Assembly: GCA_021783385.1 (NCBI GenBank)
Contig: JAJXTX010000010.1
Coordinates: 11,010 to 24,154, forward strand
DNA from: Pseudomonadota bacterium
GTDB taxonomy: Bacteria > Pseudomonadota > Gammaproteobacteria > Xanthomonadales > Rhodanobacteraceae
Length of the DNA: 13,145 bases
Direction of reading: 5' to 3'
Part shown: positions 1,506 to 11,568 of the stretch, one piece after another
Layout of the letters: every line of letters starts with the position of its first letter
How positions within the stretch are numbered: position 1 is the first letter of the stretch
Notes under the pieces: generated by a model
What the model saw: the letters and a program-made list of their open reading frames with translations, nothing else
Database searches by the model: none
What the model was told of the DNA's origin: nothing
Program-made: the position numbers and the translations under genes

Positions 1506-3560
1506 TCAATCTTCCTCCGCCCGCGGCTTCCACGCCTCGCGCAGCTGCTTCTGCAGCGACGCCGGCACTGGCTCGTAGTGGCTGAGGTCGAGGCTGTAGC
1601 GGCCGCGGCCGCCGGTCATCGACTTCAGCTCGGTGGAGTAGTCGGTCAGCTCGCCCAGCGGCGCCTGCGCCTTGATCACCAGCTCGCCGCCGCGCTGGCT
1701 ATCGGTGCCAAGGATGCGCGCGCGCTTGCCGGCGAGGCCGCCGGTGACGTCGCCCACGTGGTGCTCGGGAATCACCACTTCGAGGTTGACGATCGGTTCC
1801 AGCACCACCGGCTGCGCCTTGCCGACGGCATCGCTGAAGGCGCGGCTGCCGGCGCTGACGAAAGCGACCTCCTTCGAGTCGACCGCGTGGTGCTTGCCGT
1901 CGTAGACGGTGACACGCAGGTCCTGCAGCGGGTAGCCGGCGATGGCGCCGCGCCCCATTGCCTGGCGCACGCCCTTCTCGATCGCCGGCAGGAACTGGCC
2001 GGGGATCACGCCGCCCTTCACCGCGTCGACAAACTCGAAGCCGGCGCCGCGCTCCAGCGGCTCCACGCGCAGGAACACTTCGCCGAACTGGCCGGCGCCG
2101 CCGGTCTGCTTCTTGTGCCGGTAGTGGCCCTCGGCGTGGCCGGCGATGGTTTCGCGATAGGCGATGCGCGGCGGATGGGTGCTGACCTCGACGCCGTAGC
2201 GTTCGCGCATGCGCTCGAGCATCACCTTCAGATGCAGGTCGGAGAGTCCGCGCACCACCGTCTGGTTGAGCTCCTTGTGGTGCTCGACGCGAAAGCACGG
2301 GTCCTCCTCGGCCAGCCGCGCCAGCGCGTGGGAAAGCTTCTGCTCGTTGCCCTTGTGGGTGATTTCCAGCGCCAGCCCGACCATCGGCGTGGGAAACGCC
2401 AGCGGCGCCAGCGCGATGCGGTCGTCGTCGTGCGAGTCGTGCAGCACCGCGTCGAAATGGATCTCCTCCACCTTGGCCACCGCGGCGATGTCGCCGGCGG
2501 TCACCGCATCGATTGCCACGTGGGTCTTGCCCTGCAGCCGGAACAGGTGGCTGACCTTGAACGGCTTGTGGCCGTCGTCGATCAGCAGCTGGCTGTCGCG
2601 GCGGATCGTGCCCTGCCACACGCGGAACACACCGAGCTTGCCCACGAACGGATCGTTGACGATCTTGAACACGTCGGCGATCACGTGGCTGGCCGGATCG
2701 GCGCTGACCTGCAGCGGCTCGCCGTCGCCGCGCACGAACGGCGGCGGATTGCCTTCGGCCGGATTCGGCAGCAGCCGCGCGGCCACGTCCAGCAGCTCAC
2801 GCACGCCCGCGCCGGTGCGCGCGCTGACGAAGCAGATCGGCACCAGATGCCCTTCGCGCAGGCACTGCTCGAACGCGTCGTGCAGCTGCTGCGCGGTCAG
2901 CGCGGCCTCGCCGCGGTCGAGGTAGGCGCCCATGGTCGCCTCGTTGATCTCCACCACCTGGTCCAGGATGCGCTGGTGCGCCTGCGCCAGCGAGGAGAAA
3001 TCGGTGGCGCCCTCGCTGTGGAAAAAGCAGTCCAGCACGCGCCTGCCGCCCCCGGCGGGCAAGTTCACCGGCAGGCACTCGCTGCCGAACTCCTCGCGCA
3101 GCGCGTCGACCAGCGCGGCCAGGTCGGCGCCATCGAAGTCGATCTTGTTGACCACCAGCACGCGCGCCAGGCCGCGCTGCTTCGCGTGCGTCATCATGCG
3201 GCGGGTGCCGTGCTCGATGCCGTTGATCGCGTTCACCACCACCGCCACGGTTTCCACCGCGCCCAGCGCGGAAAGGGTGGCTCCGCGGAAGTCGGCGGAA
3301 CCGGCGGTGTCGATCAGGTTGAGGTGGCAGCCGCCGTGGTCGAGGTGCGCGATGCAGCTGTCGATCGAATGCACGCGCGCCTTTTCCTGGCTGTCGGTGT
3401 CCGACACGGTGTTGCCGCGTTCGACCGTGCCGGCCGTCTGGATCGCGCCGCCGGCGAGCAGCAGCGCCTCGAACAGCGTGGTCTTGCCCGCGCCGGCGTG
3501 GCCGGCGAGCGCGATGTTGCGGATGGTTTCGGTGCGGATATGTTCCGTGGAATGCGGCAC
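1506..3560 (-). CDS. EF-G-like translational GTPase (EF-G paralog)
   Basis: The 684-aa protein follows EF-G along its whole length. The P-loop is GHAGAGKTT (20-28), G3 is DTAGSADF (84-91) and G4 is NKID (138-141). Domain II follows, then the domain IV signature KKQTGGAGQFGEV, the domain IV tip HHAVDSKEVAF, and domain V (EPIVNLEVVIPE ... MTGGRGRYSLD). Canonical EF-G (about 700 aa) has HIDAGKT and DTPGHVDF. Here the P-loop Asp is Gly and the catalytic His is Ser. The EF-G-like subfamily is known to differ at these places, so this is probably a specialised paralog rather than the housekeeping translocase, which would sit in the str operon. The GTG start at 3560 is chosen because GGGAGGG lies 7 nt upstream; an upstream in-frame ATG at 3638 lacks this. 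The retained domain IV tip suggests it still enters the ribosomal A site. Confidence 0.9.
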   Translation of the reverse strand: MPHSTEHIRTETIRNIALAGHAGAGKTTLFEALLLAGGAIQTAGTVERGNTVSDTDSQEKARVHSIDSCIAHLDHGGCHLNLIDTAGSADFRGATLSALGAVETVAVVVNAINGIEHGTRRMMTHAKQRGLARVLVVNKIDFDGADLAALVDALREEFGSECLPVNLPAGGGRRVLDCFFHSEGATDFSSLAQAHQRILDQVVEINEATMGAYLDRGEAALTAQQLHDAFEQCLREGHLVPICFVSARTGAGVRELLDVAARLLPNPAEGNPPPFVRGDGEPLQVSADPASHVIADVFKIVNDPFVGKLGVFRVWQGTIRRDSQLLIDDGHKPFKVSHLFRLQGKTHVAIDAVTAGDIAAVAKVEEIHFDAVLHDSHDDDRIALAPLAFPTPMVGLALEITHKGNEQKLSHALARLAEEDPCFRVEHHKELNQTVVRGLSDLHLKVMLERMRERYGVEVSTHPPRIAYRETIAGHAEGHYRHKKQTGGAGQFGEVFLRVEPLERGAGFEFVDAVKGGVIPGQFLPAIEKGVRQAMGRGAIAGYPLQDLRVTVYDGKHHAVDSKEVAFVSAGSRAFSDAVGKAQPVVLEPIVNLEVVIPEHHVGDVTGGLAGKRARILGTDSQRGGELVIKAQAPLGELTDYSTELKSMTGGRGRYSLDLSHYEPVPASLQKQLREAWKPRAEED

Positions 3561-3567
3561 GATGCGA

Positions 3568-3574
3568 CCCTCCC
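3568..3574 (-). promoter_or_regulatory. Ribosome binding site setting the GTG start of the EF-G-like gene
   Basis: GGGAGGG on the minus strand, 7 nt before GTG at 3560. It supports a start 26 codons inside the longest open frame, directly ahead of the conserved GTPase domain. Confidence 0.7.
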
Positions 3575-3790
3575 TCGGTGGGGCAAGGCCTCGGGGCATG
3601 AGCGGCGCCGCATGAGGCCGTGCGTGGACGGCTGACAATGGCGGGCCGTCATGGTCGTCCTGCTTGGGCTAAGGCGCGAGGGCGGTCATGGCGGAGCGGC
3701 GCGGGGGCGCCGCCCGCCCAGACTTGAGCCGATGGCTGCCCGGGTCAAGTTGCACTGCGGGGAACCGCCCCGCGCCGTGATGGTCTGCAT

Positions 3791-3833: not shown

Positions 3834-3963
3834 GGGGTTCAAGCGCGCTGCGGCATGCTGCCCGCACGCATCCCACCATCGAGGCATCGTCATCGCTCAT
3901 TTGCAGCCGGTCGAAGATCACCGCGAAGTCCCGCCCGTCCGGCCCGCGCCGGCCCGCGGGCTG

Positions 3964-4845
3964 ATGCCGCTGGATGCGTCGACCCGCGCCATGCTGCAGC
4001 AGTGGCACCGGCGCGGCGCGCCACCCGAACGTCGGCTGCCGACACTGGCGCTGGCCGTGGCGCTGCTGCTGCACGCGTTGTTCATGCTGGCGATCTGGCA
4101 CGAGATGCGGCCGCCGGTCAGCGCAGCGGCATCGCCGGAGCGCCCGGACGACGTGCTGCAGGTACGCTTCATCGCCAGCGCACCGCAGGCGGCCACGCCA
4201 CCGCCGCCGCTGCCCGCGCCGCCGCGGGTAATCCTGAAGCAGCCGGTGCCGGCGGCCAGGAATGCAATGACGATGCAGCTGGCTACCCCGACGCCCACCC
4301 CGGCGCCGGCCGCCGTGCCGCAGCTGTACGATCGCGACGGCCTGCCGCGCCTGCCCGCGGCCGCCGCCAGCACCGCGGTGCCCGGCTACGTGCAGCGCAT
4401 GCCCGCGGGCGATACCCGGATCATGCAGCACACCAGCCCGGTGCCGTACAAGGCCACGCGCTTCGAACAGTATTTCCCGCCGCCCGGCGAAACCCTGGGC
4501 GGCGCGGTGCTGCGACATGTGGTCGAGGCGGTGGTGAAATCCACCGACGTCAACCTGCCGCACGGCGTGCACCTGAAGTGCACCACGCTGCTGGGCGTAC
4601 CGATCCCCAACTGCATCAATCCGCCGGCGCCGCCGTCGAAGAAGGACGGCGACGAGCGTCTCAGCATGGCGCCGGCCAAACCGCTGGCGGTCGACCCGCA
4701 CGCGCCGCCGCCGCCCAGCGTGGCGGCATGCATCGCGATGTATCGTGCCGGCCGGCCGCTGGCCTGGGGCTGCCCGGCGGACACGCCGAATCGCTCGGTG
4801 GATGCACAGCTGCGCAAGCATCCGGCCGCCACCGGCCAGCCCTGA
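3964..4845 (+). CDS. TonB-like membrane-anchored periplasmic protein, paralog 1
   Basis: From ATG 3964 the protein has 293 aa. A basic N-terminus leads into one membrane helix (about 26-46) with the motif ALLLHALF, placing His37 inside the membrane as in TonB and TolA (S-x3-H there, A-x3-H here). A Pro/Ala-rich stretch (about 65-140) follows, then a C-terminal domain starting GDTRIMQH (149). This domain is shared with the next gene: GDT.IM.H.SP, Y..TRF, P.GE, LP.GV, four Cys (206, 217, 256, 270), and RLSMAPAKP. The order anchor, linker, periplasmic domain is that of energy transducers, but the C-terminal sequence is not the usual TonB domain. No exbB/exbD is adjacent. The start is uncertain: an in-frame TTG at 3901 adds 21 residues, but Met at 3964 aligns with an internal Met of the paralog. 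Function unknown; periplasmic, inner-membrane anchored by inference. Confidence 0.8.
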   Translation: MPLDASTRAMLQQWHRRGAPPERRLPTLALAVALLLHALFMLAIWHEMRPPVSAAASPERPDDVLQVRFIASAPQAATPPPPLPAPPRVILKQPVPAARNAMTMQLATPTPTPAPAAVPQLYDRDGLPRLPAAAASTAVPGYVQRMPAGDTRIMQHTSPVPYKATRFEQYFPPPGETLGGAVLRHVVEAVVKSTDVNLPHGVHLKCTTLLGVPIPNCINPPAPPSKKDGDERLSMAPAKPLAVDPHAPPPPSVAACIAMYRAGRPLAWGCPADTPNRSVDAQLRKHPAATGQP

Positions 4846-4879
4846 CCCCGCAGCTCCGGCAGCGCGGCGCGTTGTCTGT

Positions 4880-4919
4880 ACCGTTCGCCCTGAGCGTAGC
4901 GAAGCGCCGTCGAAGGACA
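4880..4919 (-). repeat. Interspersed repeat, copy 2 (inverted relative to copy 1)
   Basis: Its reverse complement is identical to 188-227 at 35 of 40 positions. It sits in the 147-bp gap between the two TonB-like genes. A CGTTCGCCC...GCGAAGCG inverted half-site suggests it can fold. It may separate the transcription of the two genes. Confidence 0.7.
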
Positions 4920-4980
4920 GCCATCCACGCCGTTTGCGGGCCGGGTTCCAAGGGTCACATGGCGCCGCGGAAACGCCCGC

Positions 4981-4986
4981 TACACT
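4981..4986 (+). promoter_or_regulatory. Possible -10 element giving a leaderless mRNA for paralog 2
   Basis: TACACT ends 6 nt before the ATG at 4993, so transcription from it would begin at or next to the start codon. That fits the absence of a good Shine-Dalgarno. No clear -35 is visible (CATGGC at the expected place), so confidence is low. Confidence 0.3.
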
Positions 4987-4992
4987 GGCGGC

Positions 4993-6951
4993 ATGCCCGT
5001 ACCGCCCACGGATTCCGCTGCTGGATCGCCCGCCCGAAACCCGGCGCGGGTGATGCTGGACTCGCCGCTGGCGGCCGCCACGCGGGCCAGGGTGTATCGC
5101 CGGCGCACGCGCCAGCGGCCGCGCGAGCGCGCGCTGCGCGTGTTCGCGATGGTCGGCGCGCTGGTGGTGCATCTGCTGTTCCTGTTCGGCTTCGTGCTGG
5201 GTCCGGCCTACCAGCCCACGCTGCCGCCTGCATCGAAACAGCAGTACATGCAGGTGCGGCTGATCGAGCCGCCCGAGCTGCCGCCGCCACCGCCGGTACG
5301 CGGCACGCCGCCGAAAGTGCGCGGACCCCGCCACCAGGGTCATGCCGGCAGGCTGGCTGCCACCAGCCGGCAACCCGCAGCCACCGCCGCCGCCTCGGCA
5401 CCGCCGGCCAGGGCGATGCCACCGATCATGCCGCCGGCGTTGCCGGCCGCGCCGGTGGCGCAGCCGCTCGCGGTGACCACGCCGTCGGCGAGCCTGCCGC
5501 AGCCCGCGCCCACGCCGCGGCTGCAGCCGATTCCGCTGGCCGGGACGCCGCCGCAGGTGAACCTGCCGACGCCGCCGCTGGCTGTGCCGGTGCCGCCGAA
5601 GTTCCAGCCCGAGCGGGTGCGCGCGCCGCAGCTCGAAGGCAACCGCGCGCCGCCGCCACCGCCCTCGCTGGCCTTGCCCGAACTGCCGGCGCAGGCTACG
5701 CCGCCGATCGCCGCGCCCAGCATCGCGCTGAACCTGCCCACGCCGCGCACAAGCGCGCAGGCCAGCATCCAGCCGGCGCCGCTGCTGGTCGCGGCCGCGC
5801 CGCCGGTGCCCGCGCTGCAGCCAATCGCGCTGCCGGCGCAGCCGTCTCCCACGATCAACCTGCAGGCCGAGATCAATCCGCCCGCGCCGCCGGTTCCGCG
5901 CGTGCGGCCGCAGCTGCGGCCGCCGGCGATCACCGTGGCCGCGGTGCAGCCGCAGGCGCTGCCGCCGACGCCCGCTGCGCGGCCGCAGCTGCCGCCGTCG
6001 CTGCCTGCCGTGAAGATCGAAACCCGCACGCCGCCTGCCAGCATCCGGCCGGTACAGGCGCCTGCGTCGCTGAGCGTGGCTGCACCCGCGGCCATCGCCG
6101 TGTCGCCGCTGCCGGCCAGCGCACCCGGCGCGTCAGCGTCGCCCCCTGCCACGGCTCCCGCGCCGACCGCTGCCGCGGCAACGCCCGCTGCGGCGAGCAC
6201 GCCGGATATCAGCACCGCGCCCGACGCCACGCCGCAGGGCAGCGACAGCGCGATCCTGGGCACGCCGGCCGGTGTTCCCGCGGCGCCGGAAAGTACCGCC
6301 CACAGCGATGCCGGCGCCGGGCAGAAAACCGGGCCGGGCAGCTCGCCGGGCAGCGGCGGCGCCAACGCGGCGGCCGGGCAGACCGGCGGCAACCAGCCCG
6401 GCGCCCCGCAGGGCGAGAAGCAGGGCGCGCTCGGCGGCTACGTCGAGCTGAAGCCGCGCGGCGATACCCAAATCATGAATCACGGCAGCCCGAACATCGG
6501 CTACCGGCCCACCCGCTTCGACAAGGACTGGACGCCGGAGGGCGAAAGCTCGATCGACACCGCGCTGCGCCGCGCGGTGGAAAAAACCACCGTGTCGCAC
6601 ACCTTTCATCTGCCGCGCGGCGTGCGCGTGGAGTGCTCGCTGCATCCGCTGCTGCCGAGCGCGCTGTTCGGCTGCCGCAATCCCGATCCGCCGCCGGTGC
6701 CGGTCGCCGACAAGGTCTACGACCGCCTGCACATGGCGCCGGCCAATCCGGTGGCGGCGCCTACCCCGCTCAGCGCCGCCAGCGCGCCCGCGCCGATCCG
6801 GCTCGACAACAGCGCGCTGTGCGCCACCGCCCACGTCGCCGGCGCGCCGCCGCCGCCCGGCTGCGAAACCGTCACGCTGCCGGTGCAGCTGGCGCATCCC
6901 GCTGCCGCCTCATCCGGCTCCTGGGTACCGGCGAGCGATCAGTTTCATTGA
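4993..6951 (+). CDS. TonB-like membrane-anchored periplasmic protein with long proline-rich linker, paralog 2
   Basis: The 652-aa protein has an Arg-rich cytoplasmic N-terminus (YRRRTRQRPRER), one membrane helix (about 50-69) with ALVVHLLFLF placing His60 in the bilayer, then about 400 residues dominated by Pro, Ala and Gln. A Gly-rich hinge (about 440-480) precedes the C-terminal domain beginning GDTQIMNH (490). That domain matches paralog 1 throughout: SP..Y..TRF, P.GE, LR..VE, LP.GV, C548 and C561, D.RLHMAPANP, then C610 and C624 (both proteins have Cys-x13-Cys). The linker is far longer than in TonB (about 240 aa in total in E. coli) and could span the whole periplasm. The anchor with intramembrane His suggests coupling to an ExbBD/TolQR-type motor, but this is inference. 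ATG 4993 is used; Met21 (5053) is an alternative that aligns with the start of paralog 1. The two genes look like a tandem duplication separated by a repeat. Confidence 0.85.
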   Translation: MPVPPTDSAAGSPARNPARVMLDSPLAAATRARVYRRRTRQRPRERALRVFAMVGALVVHLLFLFGFVLGPAYQPTLPPASKQQYMQVRLIEPPELPPPPPVRGTPPKVRGPRHQGHAGRLAATSRQPAATAAASAPPARAMPPIMPPALPAAPVAQPLAVTTPSASLPQPAPTPRLQPIPLAGTPPQVNLPTPPLAVPVPPKFQPERVRAPQLEGNRAPPPPPSLALPELPAQATPPIAAPSIALNLPTPRTSAQASIQPAPLLVAAAPPVPALQPIALPAQPSPTINLQAEINPPAPPVPRVRPQLRPPAITVAAVQPQALPPTPAARPQLPPSLPAVKIETRTPPASIRPVQAPASLSVAAPAAIAVSPLPASAPGASASPPATAPAPTAAAATPAAASTPDISTAPDATPQGSDSAILGTPAGVPAAPESTAHSDAGAGQKTGPGSSPGSGGANAAAGQTGGNQPGAPQGEKQGALGGYVELKPRGDTQIMNHGSPNIGYRPTRFDKDWTPEGESSIDTALRRAVEKTTVSHTFHLPRGVRVECSLHPLLPSALFGCRNPDPPPVPVADKVYDRLHMAPANPVAAPTPLSAASAPAPIRLDNSALCATAHVAGAPPPPGCETVTLPVQLAHPAAASSGSWVPASDQFH

Positions 6952-8646: not shown

Positions 8647-11568
8647 ATGACCAGCTACCGCTGGCTGCTCAGTCTGCGCGCCCGGGTGCTGGCGCTGGCC
8701 ATGCTGGCGGCGCTGCCGGGCTTCGCGATAGCCGTGATGGATGCGGTGACGTCGTTGCAGCAGACCGAGCAGGCCGCGCGCGCGTCGCTGTCCTCCGCGC
8801 TGGGGCATGCGCGGCGCGACTATGCCGACGTCAGCGGGGATGCGGCGACCGACCTGGCCGTGGCGGCGAGCACGCTGTCCGGATTCGAGACCGGCTGCCC
8901 CGACGCGCTGCACGCGCTGGCGCAGCAGCATCCGGAATACCAGGACGTGGGGCTGGTGCGGGAGGATGGCCAGGTGATCTGCGCGCTCTCCCGCCCGGAG
9001 CGGCAGGCGCGGCCGATCGACCGCGCGCTGCTGCGGCATGCAATCGAACTGCCGGGCCACGCGGCGGTCGCGCTGCTGGCCGACAGCCCGGTCGCGCCGC
9101 CGCGCCTGATGGTGGCGCACGCGCTGCACAAGCCGGGATCGCCGCAGCTGATCGCCTTCGTCGCCACCGCATTCACGCCGCTGCTCGATGCCACCATCGA
9201 GCCGTTCATGCATGAAGCCCGGCTGCTGTTCATCGATACCCGCGGCGGCTTGCTCGACCCGGGCCAACGCCTTTCCGCACGGGCCCGGGCTGACATCAGC
9301 CAGCGCCTGATCCGCTCGGCGCGCGGAACGAATACCGCCTCCGCCAGCGTGGCCACCATCGAGCGGATCGGTTCGGCGCTGGTCGCTTGGCAGCCGCTGG
9401 GAGAACGCGGCGAGGTTGGCGCAATGGCGCTGGCGATCCCCCGCGCTGCCCTGTACGGTCCCGCCTGGCAGGCGCTGCTGCGCAATCTGAGCATGATGCT
9501 GGGCGGCCTGCTGATCGCGCTTGCACTGGTGTGGTGGATCGGCTACCGCCTGATCCTGCTGCCGACACAGGCGCTGATGCTGGCGATCGATCGGCTGGCC
9601 AAAGGCGATCTGCGCGCGCGCACCGGGTTGCTGCCGGGCAACGACGAAATCGCCCGGTTGGGCATGGCCTTCGACCGCATGGCCGGCGACATCGAACAGC
9701 AGGCGGTGGAGCGCGTCGCCCATCTGCGCTCGCTCGAACGCCGCCATCGCCTGCACGCGGTGCTGGCCGGCATCAATGCAGCGATCCTGCGGCGGCTGAG
9801 CGTGGCCCAGCTGCAGGACGAAATCTGCCGCATCGCCTGCGAGGTCGGTGAGTTCAGCCTCGCCTGGATCGGCGAGGTGGACGCGCAGCGGAAGACGCTG
9901 TGCGCGGTCAGCTGGGCTGGCGAGCATTCGCTGGCGATCGGCGAATTGCGCCTGCCGCTGGACCGGGATCTTTCGGGCAGCGCAATTCCCTCGGTGACCG
10001 CTGCCCGCGACGGTGTGGTGGCGGTCAGCAACCGCTATCTGGCCGATCCGCGCACGGCGGACTGGCGCGATCTCGGGCAGCAGCTTGGGGTTCGTTCGGC
10101 AGCCTCGTTTCCGCTCGGGTTTACCGCAGATGGGCACCGCCGCACGCTGACCCTGGGCGTGGACCGGGAAGACTATTTCGAGGCCGACGAGCTGCAGCTG
10201 CTGGAACAGCTGGCGCACGACGCCGCCTTCGGCCTGCACCTGATCGCCACCGAGCAGGCGCTGGCGCACACGCGCACCCACGACGCCAGCACCGGCCTGC
10301 CCAATGACGTACTGCTGCAGCAGCATCTGCACGATGCGCTGCGCCGCGCCCGCAGCACCCGCAAGGGCGTGGTGGTCGGCGTGCTGGAGATCGGTCTGCA
10401 GCGGCTGGTAAGTCAGTGGGGCTCGCAGCTGGCCGACGAGCTGTTCAAGCGCATCGGCCGGGAAGTCGAGGCGCAGCTGGGCGAGGACGACTTCGTCGGT
10501 GTGCTGACCGGCGCCCGCTTTGCCATCGTTCTGGGCAACCTCGACCGCATCGACGACGCCGAACGGCAGATCGAGGCGCTGGTCGAGCGGCTGCAGGCGG
10601 TGCGGATTGCGCAGCGCGACGAGTTCATGGCACCGACGCCGCGGGTGGGCGTGGCGGTGTTTCCGGACGACGGCCATGACCCGCACGAACTGCTCGACCG
10701 GGCGCAGACCGCGCTGGCCGTGCGGCACGCAGGGCGCAGCGAGGCGGTGCACTTTTACGCGCCGGCGATCAGCCTCAGCCTGCAGGAAAACCGCCGGCTG
10801 GAGCAGCAGCTGCGCAGCGCGATCGCCGGCAACGAGCTGGCCTTGCACTACCAGCCAATCATCGATCTGGCGTCCGGCGCGCTGCACGGTTTCGAGGCGT
10901 TGCTGCGCTGGCAGCATCCCGAGCTGGGTGAGGTGCCGCCGACCCGCTTCATTCCGCTGGCCGAGAGCAGCGGCCTGATCATCCCGCTGGGCGACTGGGT
11001 GGTGAGCGAAGCGGTGCGTCAGGCGCTCGCGTGGGAGCGGATGGGCGCGAGCAACCTCGTCATCACGCTGAATGTTTCGGCCGTGCAGATGCGCGATGCG
11101 CAATTCGGCGCGCGCGTGGGCAGGCTGTTGCGTGCAACTGGCGCGCGGCCGGCGGCGGTAAGGCTGGCGCTCGAGCTCACCGAAAGCCAGCTGATGGCCG
11201 ACATCGACGCCAGCGCCAGCCTGCTCGCCCAGCTCAAGGCCGGCGGCATCGACATCATCATCGACGACTTCGGCAGCGGCTATTCGTCGCTCAGCTATCT
11301 GCACCAGCTGCCGGTCGATGCCCTGAAGATCGATCGCTCGTTCACTGCCAGCATCGACAGCAGCCGCAAGGCTGCCATGATCGTGGAGGGCATCCTGGCA
11401 CTGGCCCGCTCGCTGGAGATCGCCACGGTCGCCGAAGGCATCGAGCGCGCCGAACAGATCGAGCGGGTCAAGCGCATGGGCTGCATGTACGCCCAGGGCT
11501 TCTGGTTCGACCGCGCGCTGGCGCCGCAGGCAGTCGAGCAGAAATGGATCGCACGCAGCCTGGTCTGA
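8647..11568 (+). CDS. Membrane sensor c-di-GMP phosphodiesterase (CACHE-like, HAMP, GAF, degenerate GGDEF, EAL)
   Basis: The 973-aa protein has TM1 at about 10-30, a periplasmic sensor region (31-280), TM2 (282-304), HAMP (305-357), GAF (about 365-535), GGDEF-like (about 540-690) and EAL (about 710-965). The GGDEF motif is replaced by TGARFAIVL (621-629), so cyclase activity is not expected. The EAL residues are all present: EAL at 750-752, N809 in LNVS, E843 and E846 in ELTES, DD at 873-874 in DDFGSGYSS, K894 in LKID, E930 and E933 in AEGIE, and Q950 in QGF. It should therefore hydrolyse c-di-GMP to pGpG at the inner membrane, with activity set by a periplasmic ligand through HAMP and by a cytosolic ligand through GAF. 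It probably shares an operon with the deleted GGDEF gene. The start ATG lacks a strong Shine-Dalgarno. Domain assignment is firm; the ligand is unknown. Confidence 0.92.
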   Translation: MTSYRWLLSLRARVLALAMLAALPGFAIAVMDAVTSLQQTEQAARASLSSALGHARRDYADVSGDAATDLAVAASTLSGFETGCPDALHALAQQHPEYQDVGLVREDGQVICALSRPERQARPIDRALLRHAIELPGHAAVALLADSPVAPPRLMVAHALHKPGSPQLIAFVATAFTPLLDATIEPFMHEARLLFIDTRGGLLDPGQRLSARARADISQRLIRSARGTNTASASVATIERIGSALVAWQPLGERGEVGAMALAIPRAALYGPAWQALLRNLSMMLGGLLIALALVWWIGYRLILLPTQALMLAIDRLAKGDLRARTGLLPGNDEIARLGMAFDRMAGDIEQQAVERVAHLRSLERRHRLHAVLAGINAAILRRLSVAQLQDEICRIACEVGEFSLAWIGEVDAQRKTLCAVSWAGEHSLAIGELRLPLDRDLSGSAIPSVTAARDGVVAVSNRYLADPRTADWRDLGQQLGVRSAASFPLGFTADGHRRTLTLGVDREDYFEADELQLLEQLAHDAAFGLHLIATEQALAHTRTHDASTGLPNDVLLQQHLHDALRRARSTRKGVVVGVLEIGLQRLVSQWGSQLADELFKRIGREVEAQLGEDDFVGVLTGARFAIVLGNLDRIDDAERQIEALVERLQAVRIAQRDEFMAPTPRVGVAVFPDDGHDPHELLDRAQTALAVRHAGRSEAVHFYAPAISLSLQENRRLEQQLRSAIAGNELALHYQPIIDLASGALHGFEALLRWQHPELGEVPPTRFIPLAESSGLIIPLGDWVVSEAVRQALAWERMGASNLVITLNVSAVQMRDAQFGARVGRLLRATGARPAAVRLALELTESQLMADIDASASLLAQLKAGGIDIIIDDFGSGYSSLSYLHQLPVDALKIDRSFTASIDSSRKAAMIVEGILALARSLEIATVAEGIERAEQIERVKRMGCMYAQGFWFDRALAPQAVEQKWIARSLV

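Follow-up and report, generated by a model that had tools for sequence, protein, structure and literature searches.

Genes A and B of a Rhodanobacteraceae genome as candidate TonB/TolA-type force transducers with a four-cysteine terminal domain, the first probably read from an AUC start

What is the role of two adjacent genes that each join a TonB-like membrane anchor to the same four-cysteine terminal domain, and where does the first of them begin? The genes, here termed A (short linker) and B (long linker), lie on the plus strand of a 13,145-nucleotide stretch of DNA (the window; positions 11,010 to 24,154 of contig JAJXTX010000010.1, assembly GCA_021783385.1) from a bacterium of the family Rhodanobacteraceae, order Xanthomonadales, whose genome of 2.83 Mb is 79.8% complete. 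A preliminary description of the window had recorded two neighbouring genes with common motifs and a His-bearing membrane helix each, and had proposed that they encode energy transducers or periplasm-spanning structural proteins; genes, motifs and helices were found where it had placed them (Table 1). We consider it somewhat probable that the two genes encode paralogous force transducers of the TonB/TolA type, anchored in the inner membrane, and that gene A is translated from an AUC start.

The C-terminal halves of A and B are 36% identical over 160 amino acids (BLASTP, E = 1e-16), so their likeness is not due to chance. As described earlier, they share a four-Cys domain whose second pair is C-x13-C in both: Cys206/217 (C-x10-C) and Cys256/270 (C-x13-C) in A, numbered from the ATG at 3964, and Cys548/561 (C-x12-C) and Cys610/624 (C-x13-C) in B. 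After the recognisable start of the domain, four Cys were counted in all 117 parsed B relatives and in 105 of the 117 parsed A relatives, the other 12 having six (120 relatives on each side, out of 382 found for B and 287 for A; three unparsed in each). The four Cys were also invariant across an alignment of 120 domains. Besides the two of the window, it contained 118 domains out of a less redundant set of 131 that came from 80 A and 73 B pieces of named loci. In a wider alignment of 30 family members (A, B, a paralogue C found elsewhere in the genomes, and distant copies; 31 collected, one unparsed) the common core was L[YF]..dG..rlp ... Y..TrF...W.P..E ... P.g....C......ggC. The first (hairpin) Cys pair was present in 25 of the 30. 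Among the members aligned, C-x13-C was seen only in the A, B and C types of the own family (the Rhodanobacter side), and there not in every copy, the pair being missing from A of locus L046 and one residue shorter in L045. As a mark of the family the first pair thus holds up widely, and the second is confined to the Rhodanobacter side.

The spread of the pair through the order had been left for a genome-wide search. The A model matched 172 of 197 genomes of the family, some of them weakly, and missed none of the 26 genera sampled; the B model matched 67 of 299 genomes of the order, 65 of them in the own family and the two outside it weakly. A domain model built from A and B (A3) matched 222 of 398 genomes of the order at E 0.01, with E-values between 0.01 and 7e-11 in another large family (f2), and two of 369 genomes sampled across the class, both from this order. 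Relatives of gene A came mostly from records of Rhodanobacter, Dyella, Frateuria and Fulvimonas and from unnamed bins. An f2 member compared with the protein database retrieved proteins named hypothetical or 'transmembrane repetitive protein' (best 120 of 470), and this set is termed the Lysobacter side because many of the listed relatives are from Lysobacter. Profile comparison places these proteins, mostly ~550–600 amino acids long, in the same family, with which they share the Y..T.F...W.P..E core, the first Cys pair and the anchor His, but they lack C-x13-C in the members aligned, have a longer cytoplasmic N-terminus, and adjoin an NfuA-type gene instead of the elongation factor G (EF-G) gene in six of the loci read, the NfuA-type name having been assigned on one of the six, below the curated cut-off. 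The motif L[Y/F]xxxGxxRLP (A residues 121–131) precedes the domain in A and in Lysobacter-side copies, and none was seen in alignments of Rhodanobacter-type B.

Loss of the pair or of its cysteines from relatives, which the preliminary description had named as counter-evidence, was not encountered. Of 80 named A loci (L069–L148, the best matches of one search), 78 have a B gene downstream of A in the same orientation, less than 1 kb away in 77 and ~2.9 kb off in L137; as to the two others, the contig of L087 ends first and L132 shows no B, and some copies are cut at the end of the stretch. The A-type genes at the EF-G locus look ancestral, with B a long-linker sister and C a dispersed copy. 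Near the EF-G locus of other genera, TonB-like genes were also seen (L217, L218, L220, L221, L223), and those of L218, L220 and L221 are neighbouring pairs with the same T.F core in which the second gene has a changed or missing Cys hairpin. Tandem duplication seems to be recurrent, because k9 with k15, and likewise two k23 genes, form neighbouring family-like pairs in other genera. The middle of the A domain occurs in two versions, YFPPPGET...VHLKC and DW..NA...VRIHC...GGCGG, the rest of the proteins being alike; the second resembles B and may reflect gene conversion or recombination.

TonB and TolA dock through an SHLS helix motif (PMC12204202, PMC10907165), and the D-box, a Pro-flanked run of alternating hydrophobic and polar residues, directly follows the anchor (PMC10907165), as set out in the portions of these papers available to us. 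The helix His was found wherever its alignment column was occupied, in 117 A and 109 B sequences out of 121 each, and in 116 of 120 Lysobacter-side sequences, the rest having Asn (2) or Gln (2). The residue four positions before it is Ser or Thr in 111 of the 120 on the Lysobacter side (Ser 56, Thr 55, Ala 9), mostly Ala in B (Ala 85, Thr 16, Ser 11; n = 112) and mostly Ala or Val in A (Ala 64, Val 42, Met 4, Thr 3, Ser 1; n = 114). Of 117 A sequences, 107 showed a D-box-like pattern, taken as strict five-residue alternation 14–50 residues past the His, as did 109 of 110 B sequences and 40 of 116 from the Lysobacter side; shuffling of the same stretch led to expectations of 6.1, 3.8 and 4.0 (4 A, 11 B and 4 Lysobacter-side sequences without His in the chosen helix were left out). 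Its commonest forms were LQVRFI in A and LQVRLI in B, and its distance from the His was 26 in 103 of 109 B matches, 26–28 in 84 of 107 A matches, and 28 or 30 in 31 of 40 on the Lysobacter side. The genome's own TonB, encoded on the same contig (C81) as an exbB gene (L001), has AVAIGLHAF and VQVNFIEPPPPP at a distance of +25, showing that Ala-x3-His is in use by a TonB here. In E. coli TonB the D-box spacing, counted from His20, is likewise ~25. Among 112 single-helix open reading frames (ORFs) of the same loci, seven had such a His and three had His and D-box pattern together, two of the three being neighbours of family members with a similar layout. One Lysobacter-side member showed a weak match to the TolA N-terminal region (TIGR02794, E 0.0042, below cut-off). 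The transducer reading is supported by the near-invariant His, by the Ser/Thr at −4 on the Lysobacter side, by the D-box near TonB spacing, and by the combination of Ala-x3-His and D-box in the own TonB.

Several observations weigh against this reading. In the loci read, where names were assigned mostly by sight, none of the genes next to A or B was recognised as exbB-, exbD- or tolQ-like. Eighteen of the 107 A D-box matches start at +20 and represent another stretch, and on the Lysobacter side only those 40 copies meet the strict pattern. In a positive control of 32 ORFs matching TonB_C, a His in the chosen helix was found in 13 and the D-box pattern in 9, with no helix over threshold in 6, indicating that the signature misses some TonB_C proteins. 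A conserved helix face through the His was sought and rejected, the conservation moment not being significantly directed toward it in any of the three sets (projection P 0.23 for A, 0.058 for B, 0.11 for the Lysobacter side). The hairpin Cys pair is absent from 5 of the 30 aligned members (three k15-type and two short Lysobacter-side copies), and the AlphaFold models of A (pLDDT 65.7, pTM 0.25), confident in the membrane helix, and of the B domain (pLDDT 63.8, pTM 0.24) are weak.

On another view, A and B serve passively, as structural or tethering proteins built from an anchor, a spacer and a domain binding the cell wall or outer membrane, in which His and strand are kept for another reason or from a TonB-like ancestor. 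The lack of a recognised motor gene in the loci read would be natural for such proteins, as would a linker of 389 residues in B, far in excess of what a taut rod needs, and the strong conservation in 29 relatives of parts of this linker and of the extreme C-terminus, which is what one sees in a binding protein. Tethering fits poorly with the retention of His and D-box in ~91–100% of A and B sequences while much of helix and linker varies, nor was any Pfam domain found in A or B; we regard it as rather unlikely. The linkers had also been read as a sign that the two proteins could reach different depths of the envelope. Both are Pro/Ala-rich by residue composition, as described, that of A comprising 48 residues (71–118, 29% Pro). 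At ~0.31 nm per residue of polyproline II, 48–75 residues extend ~15–23 nm and already match the width of the periplasm, so that linker length is no simple measure of depth and the proposal is weakly founded; reach alone does not explain the linker of B. An almost invariant tail, WVPASDQFH (window 6922–6948), closes B in the 29 close relatives.

Gene A had been described as starting at ATG 3964, and its protein and motifs stand as given, although the start probably lies upstream, at ATC 3892–3894. The reading frame is open and conserved ahead of the ATG, and in 81 aligned loci (the 80 named ones and the window; Ile at the site not required) protein conservation sets in at an ATC codon in 79 and at an ATT codon in 2. 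Since 515 of 638 Ile codons in these genes are ATC, the third base alone says little. A Shine-Dalgarno (SD)-like 4-mer is found 5–14 nt upstream in 65 of the 81 loci, whereas the other in-frame ATC codons of these genes have one in 89 of 504 cases and random positions in 7.5%. An in-frame stop lies at most four codons upstream in 12 of the 81 loci; in 32, no in-frame ATG, GTG or TTG stands between stop and ATC, and in 60 no SD-preceded canonical start is present in frame, either upstream or as far as codon +45.

Paralogue C (L037–L047, L237–L263) has at the same position ATC in 21, ATG in 10 and GTG in 4 copies, with one unassigned (L041; n = 36, by eye), and an in-frame stop within five codons upstream in 33 of the 35 assigned copies; for a subset of 27, a script gave ATC 14, ATG 8 and GTG 5 and inspection by eye 15, 8 and 4 (L256 being ATC). 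Such exchange of ATC, ATG and GTG is what a start site predicts. Twelve further A genes, from 13 stretches (L264 equals L272), showed GTG in 6, ATG in 1, ATC in 4 and CTC in 1, at least some of the ATC ones coming from genomes already among the 80. A of another genus has GTG (L265–L270) or ATG (L264/L272) in a longer N-terminus, L271 has CTC at the site and GTG four codons upstream, L046 has ATG three codons before an ATC, and distant A-like copies have ATG at or near the called start (L064, L217, L218, L221). A copies of other genera thus seem to use ordinary starts, and from these comparisons it looks as if the ATC start was gained before A and C parted, or was shared by exchange.

A start at ATG 3964 or at TTG 3901, with the conserved upstream part acting as regulatory RNA or leader, appears improbable. 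It would accord with the varied places at which database copies of A begin, as judged by lengths and N-termini, with the TTG three codons past the ATC in the window, and with the other-genus copies that have GTG or ATG or, in L271, no ATC at the site. It is hard to reconcile with pairwise differences at codon positions 1, 2 and 3 of 856, 686 and 2374 directly after the ATC, compared with 2643, 2852 and 2718 before it (35 loci, picked by a pattern requiring Ile at the site), with the six of 81 loci in which neither ATG nor GTG nor TTG occurs between the in-frame stop and codon +45, or with the use of ATC, ATG or GTG at this codon in paralogue C, mostly just past an in-frame stop.

The AUC start has relatives in infC and pcnB of E. 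coli, which start at AUU, and in other such starts of S. aureus; these starts lower expression and are discriminated against by initiation factor 3 (IF3), as described in the available parts of PMC9410913 and PMC13009471. By analogy, IF3 may act on the AUC start of gene A. The published cases involve AUU or AUA, in S. aureus with a strong SD site; gene A differs in having AUC in nearly all copies, in encoding an envelope protein, and in keeping the codon across genera and in part of paralogue C.

The terminal domain gave no family match: neither Pfam nor NCBIfam returned a family for A or B at E 1, and a sequence search of the PDB with A found nothing at E 1. Pfam searches of 38 A members at E up to 10 gave scattered matches, the best being PF13314 (DUF4083) in two members at E 0.0061, which were deemed chance. 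In the low-confidence models, a helix (178–190) is followed by strands 191–198, 202–209 and 212–218 in A, and a helix (35–46) by strands 49–55, 59–65 and 75–77 in the B domain; fold searches with both models gave no noteworthy match. No Pfam vWA match was found in A or B and, because the models are of low confidence, the fold searches leave room for a vWA fold. That A and B are diverged ordinary TonB proteins, whose end domain would be a much altered TonB_C or TolA fold acting on outer-membrane transporters, is improbable, since the TonB-like N-terminal half and a predicted helix and strands loosely like part of the TonB_C and TolA folds (a comparison from general knowledge) are set against a differing Cys pattern, hhalign probabilities of 0.1% with 26 TonB_C domains and 0.5% with TolA (an alignment of four rows), and the absence of the TonB_C match that the preliminary description had named as counter-evidence, both in A and B at E 1 and in the 38 A members at E up to 10.

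The best-supported description, drawn from sequence comparison, is that the N-terminal half would work like that of TonB and TolA and that the terminal domain makes A and B neither of the two. As force transducers, A and B would use the His of the N-terminal helix to dock laterally on an ExbB/TolQ-type pentamer, an ExbD/TolR dimer would capture the short strand that follows this helix (LQVRFI in A, MQVRLI in B), and the Pro/Ala-rich linker would cross the periplasm, so that the terminal domain, probably disulfide-bearing, could grip a cell-wall or outer-membrane target other than a standard TonB-box transporter. The very long linker of B would provide a mobile or wall-associated reach and not a taut rod, and the AUC start would keep the level of gene A low and tied to IF3.

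Compared with TonB (PF03544, TonB_C), A and B are alike in the single N-terminal helix with x3-His, a D-box-like strand at similar spacing, a Pro-rich linker and a C-terminal domain; the residue at −4 is small, mostly Ala or Val in A and Ala, Thr or Ser in B. They differ in the terminal domain, by sequence and by profile, in its four Cys, in the far longer linker of B, and in that neither was seen beside exbBD, linked exbB/exbD genes being common for TonB though not universal. With TolA (TIGR02794; PF06519) they share a Cys pair in the terminal domain and, in most Lysobacter-side relatives, the Ser/Thr-x3-His anchor, but they show neither a terminal-domain profile match nor an NCBIfam match at E 1, and they adjoin the EF-G gene and not a tol-pal-like locus, the genome's own tolA being separate (L234, contig C163; TIGR02794, E 5.8e-20). 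A precedent for the layout is provided by transducers with an SHLS helix, a motor box, a Pro-rich linker and a vWA terminal domain (Williams-Jones et al. 2025, PMC12204202, in the part available); in the PVC group these often lie beside motor genes, while none was recognised next to A and B.

Four MotA/ExbB-family matches were found in the own genome. One stands beside the TolA gene, whose tolB- and pal-like neighbours were named by sight; one is on the TonB contig and one is a low-scoring MotA-like match. The fourth belongs to an ExbB-ExbD pair (L231, G000:C61), which matches the tolQ/exbB and tolR/exbD families of NCBIfam below cut-off. By sight, the cluster around it is lolC-lolD-comEC-exbB-exbD, followed in two relatives by msbA- and lpxK-like genes (L232, L235). 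No TonB_C match was found on the contig of L231 and no adjoining TonB-like gene was recognised, part of the stretch being unreadable. This pair is a candidate partner of A and B. It is possible, though we hold it only tentatively, that, in addition to TonB/TolA and the vWA type, A and B represent another class of periplasmic force transducers driven by protons, with a small disulfide-hairpin domain restricted to one order, acting on an envelope target, perhaps served by the ExbB-ExbD pair of the Lol/ComEC-like cluster, and with a first member whose AUC start is conserved in several genera and places its level under IF3.

Literature searches, covering part of the literature, returned nothing on 'transmembrane repetitive protein', nothing on this case under 'AUC start codon', and nothing on A or B in connection with TonB in this order, an nfuA link, undiscovered motors or transposon fitness; the available part of PMC11002078, on the TonB proteins of S. 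maltophilia, contains no mention of A/B-type proteins. If A and B dock on ExbBD- or TolQR-type motors, one order would couple the proton motive force to an envelope process of which we found no account in the literature searched, and docking would support the repeated joining of the motor-docking half of TonB/TolA to unrelated end domains. The small domain offers a handle for finding the target. The AUC start of gene A and of part of paralogue C, swapped in the latter for AUG or GUG in some species, would be a natural comparison for weak starts and IF3 control and, if true, means that many database copies of gene A have wrong starts.

Table 1. Features of the A/B system and its surroundings in the window
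Feature	Position	Strand	Details
Gene A (short linker)	3892..4845	+	317 aa from ATC 3892; 293 aa from ATG 3964
Shine-Dalgarno-like GAGG	3881..3884	+	7 nt ahead of the proposed ATC start
ATC, proposed non-canonical start of gene A	3892..3894	+	72 bases before ATG 3964; from alignments of A loci and paralogue C
A membrane helix	4042..4107	+	His37 codon 4072-4074; model helix 21-48, pLDDT blocks 80, 97, 94
A D-box-like LQVRFI	4156..4173	+	pattern after PMC10907165 (part available)
A motif LYDRDGLPRLP ahead of the domain	4324..4356	+	D123, G126, L130, P131 invariant in 38 sequences
A C-terminal domain	4396..4842	+	Cys codons at 4579, 4612, 4729, 4771
Gene B (long linker)	4993..6951	+	652 aa
B membrane helix	5140..5208	+	His60 codon 5170-5172
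B D-box-like MQVRLI	5248..5265	+	D-box pattern search
B Pro/Ala-rich linker	5266..6432	+	residues 92-480, 25% Pro, 21% Ala
B C-terminal domain	6439..6948	+	Cys codons at 6634, 6673, 6820, 6862
Elongation factor G gene	1506..3638	-	NF009891 E 1.8e-277, Pfam EFG_IV and others; context, outside the A/B system
Repeat element in the A-B gap	4884..4904	+	21 bases; second copy with 2 mismatches at 203-223, - strand

In the window, A and B are flanked on the left by the divergent EF-G gene, a DUF6438 gene and a GreA/GreB-C gene, and on the right by a 116-amino-acid ORF without Pfam match, a GGDEF fragment and a HAMP-GAF-GGDEF-EAL protein; genes of the A/B neighbourhood were called by script and named mostly by sight. 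An EF-G relative lies upstream of A on the opposite strand in 73 of the 80 named loci. As a clue to function the neighbourhood was discarded, the EF-G, GreA/GreB-type, SET-like, acyl-CoA dehydrogenase-like and transporter-like genes (the last three named by sight) presenting an apparent conserved synteny that points to no pathway. The record of locus L121, titled Candidatus Eremiobacteraeota, carries EF-G, A and the start of B, the bin probably being mislabelled or mixed. The 21-base repeat in the gap between A and B, whose second copy lies at the left end of the window, had no counterpart in 200 shuffles.

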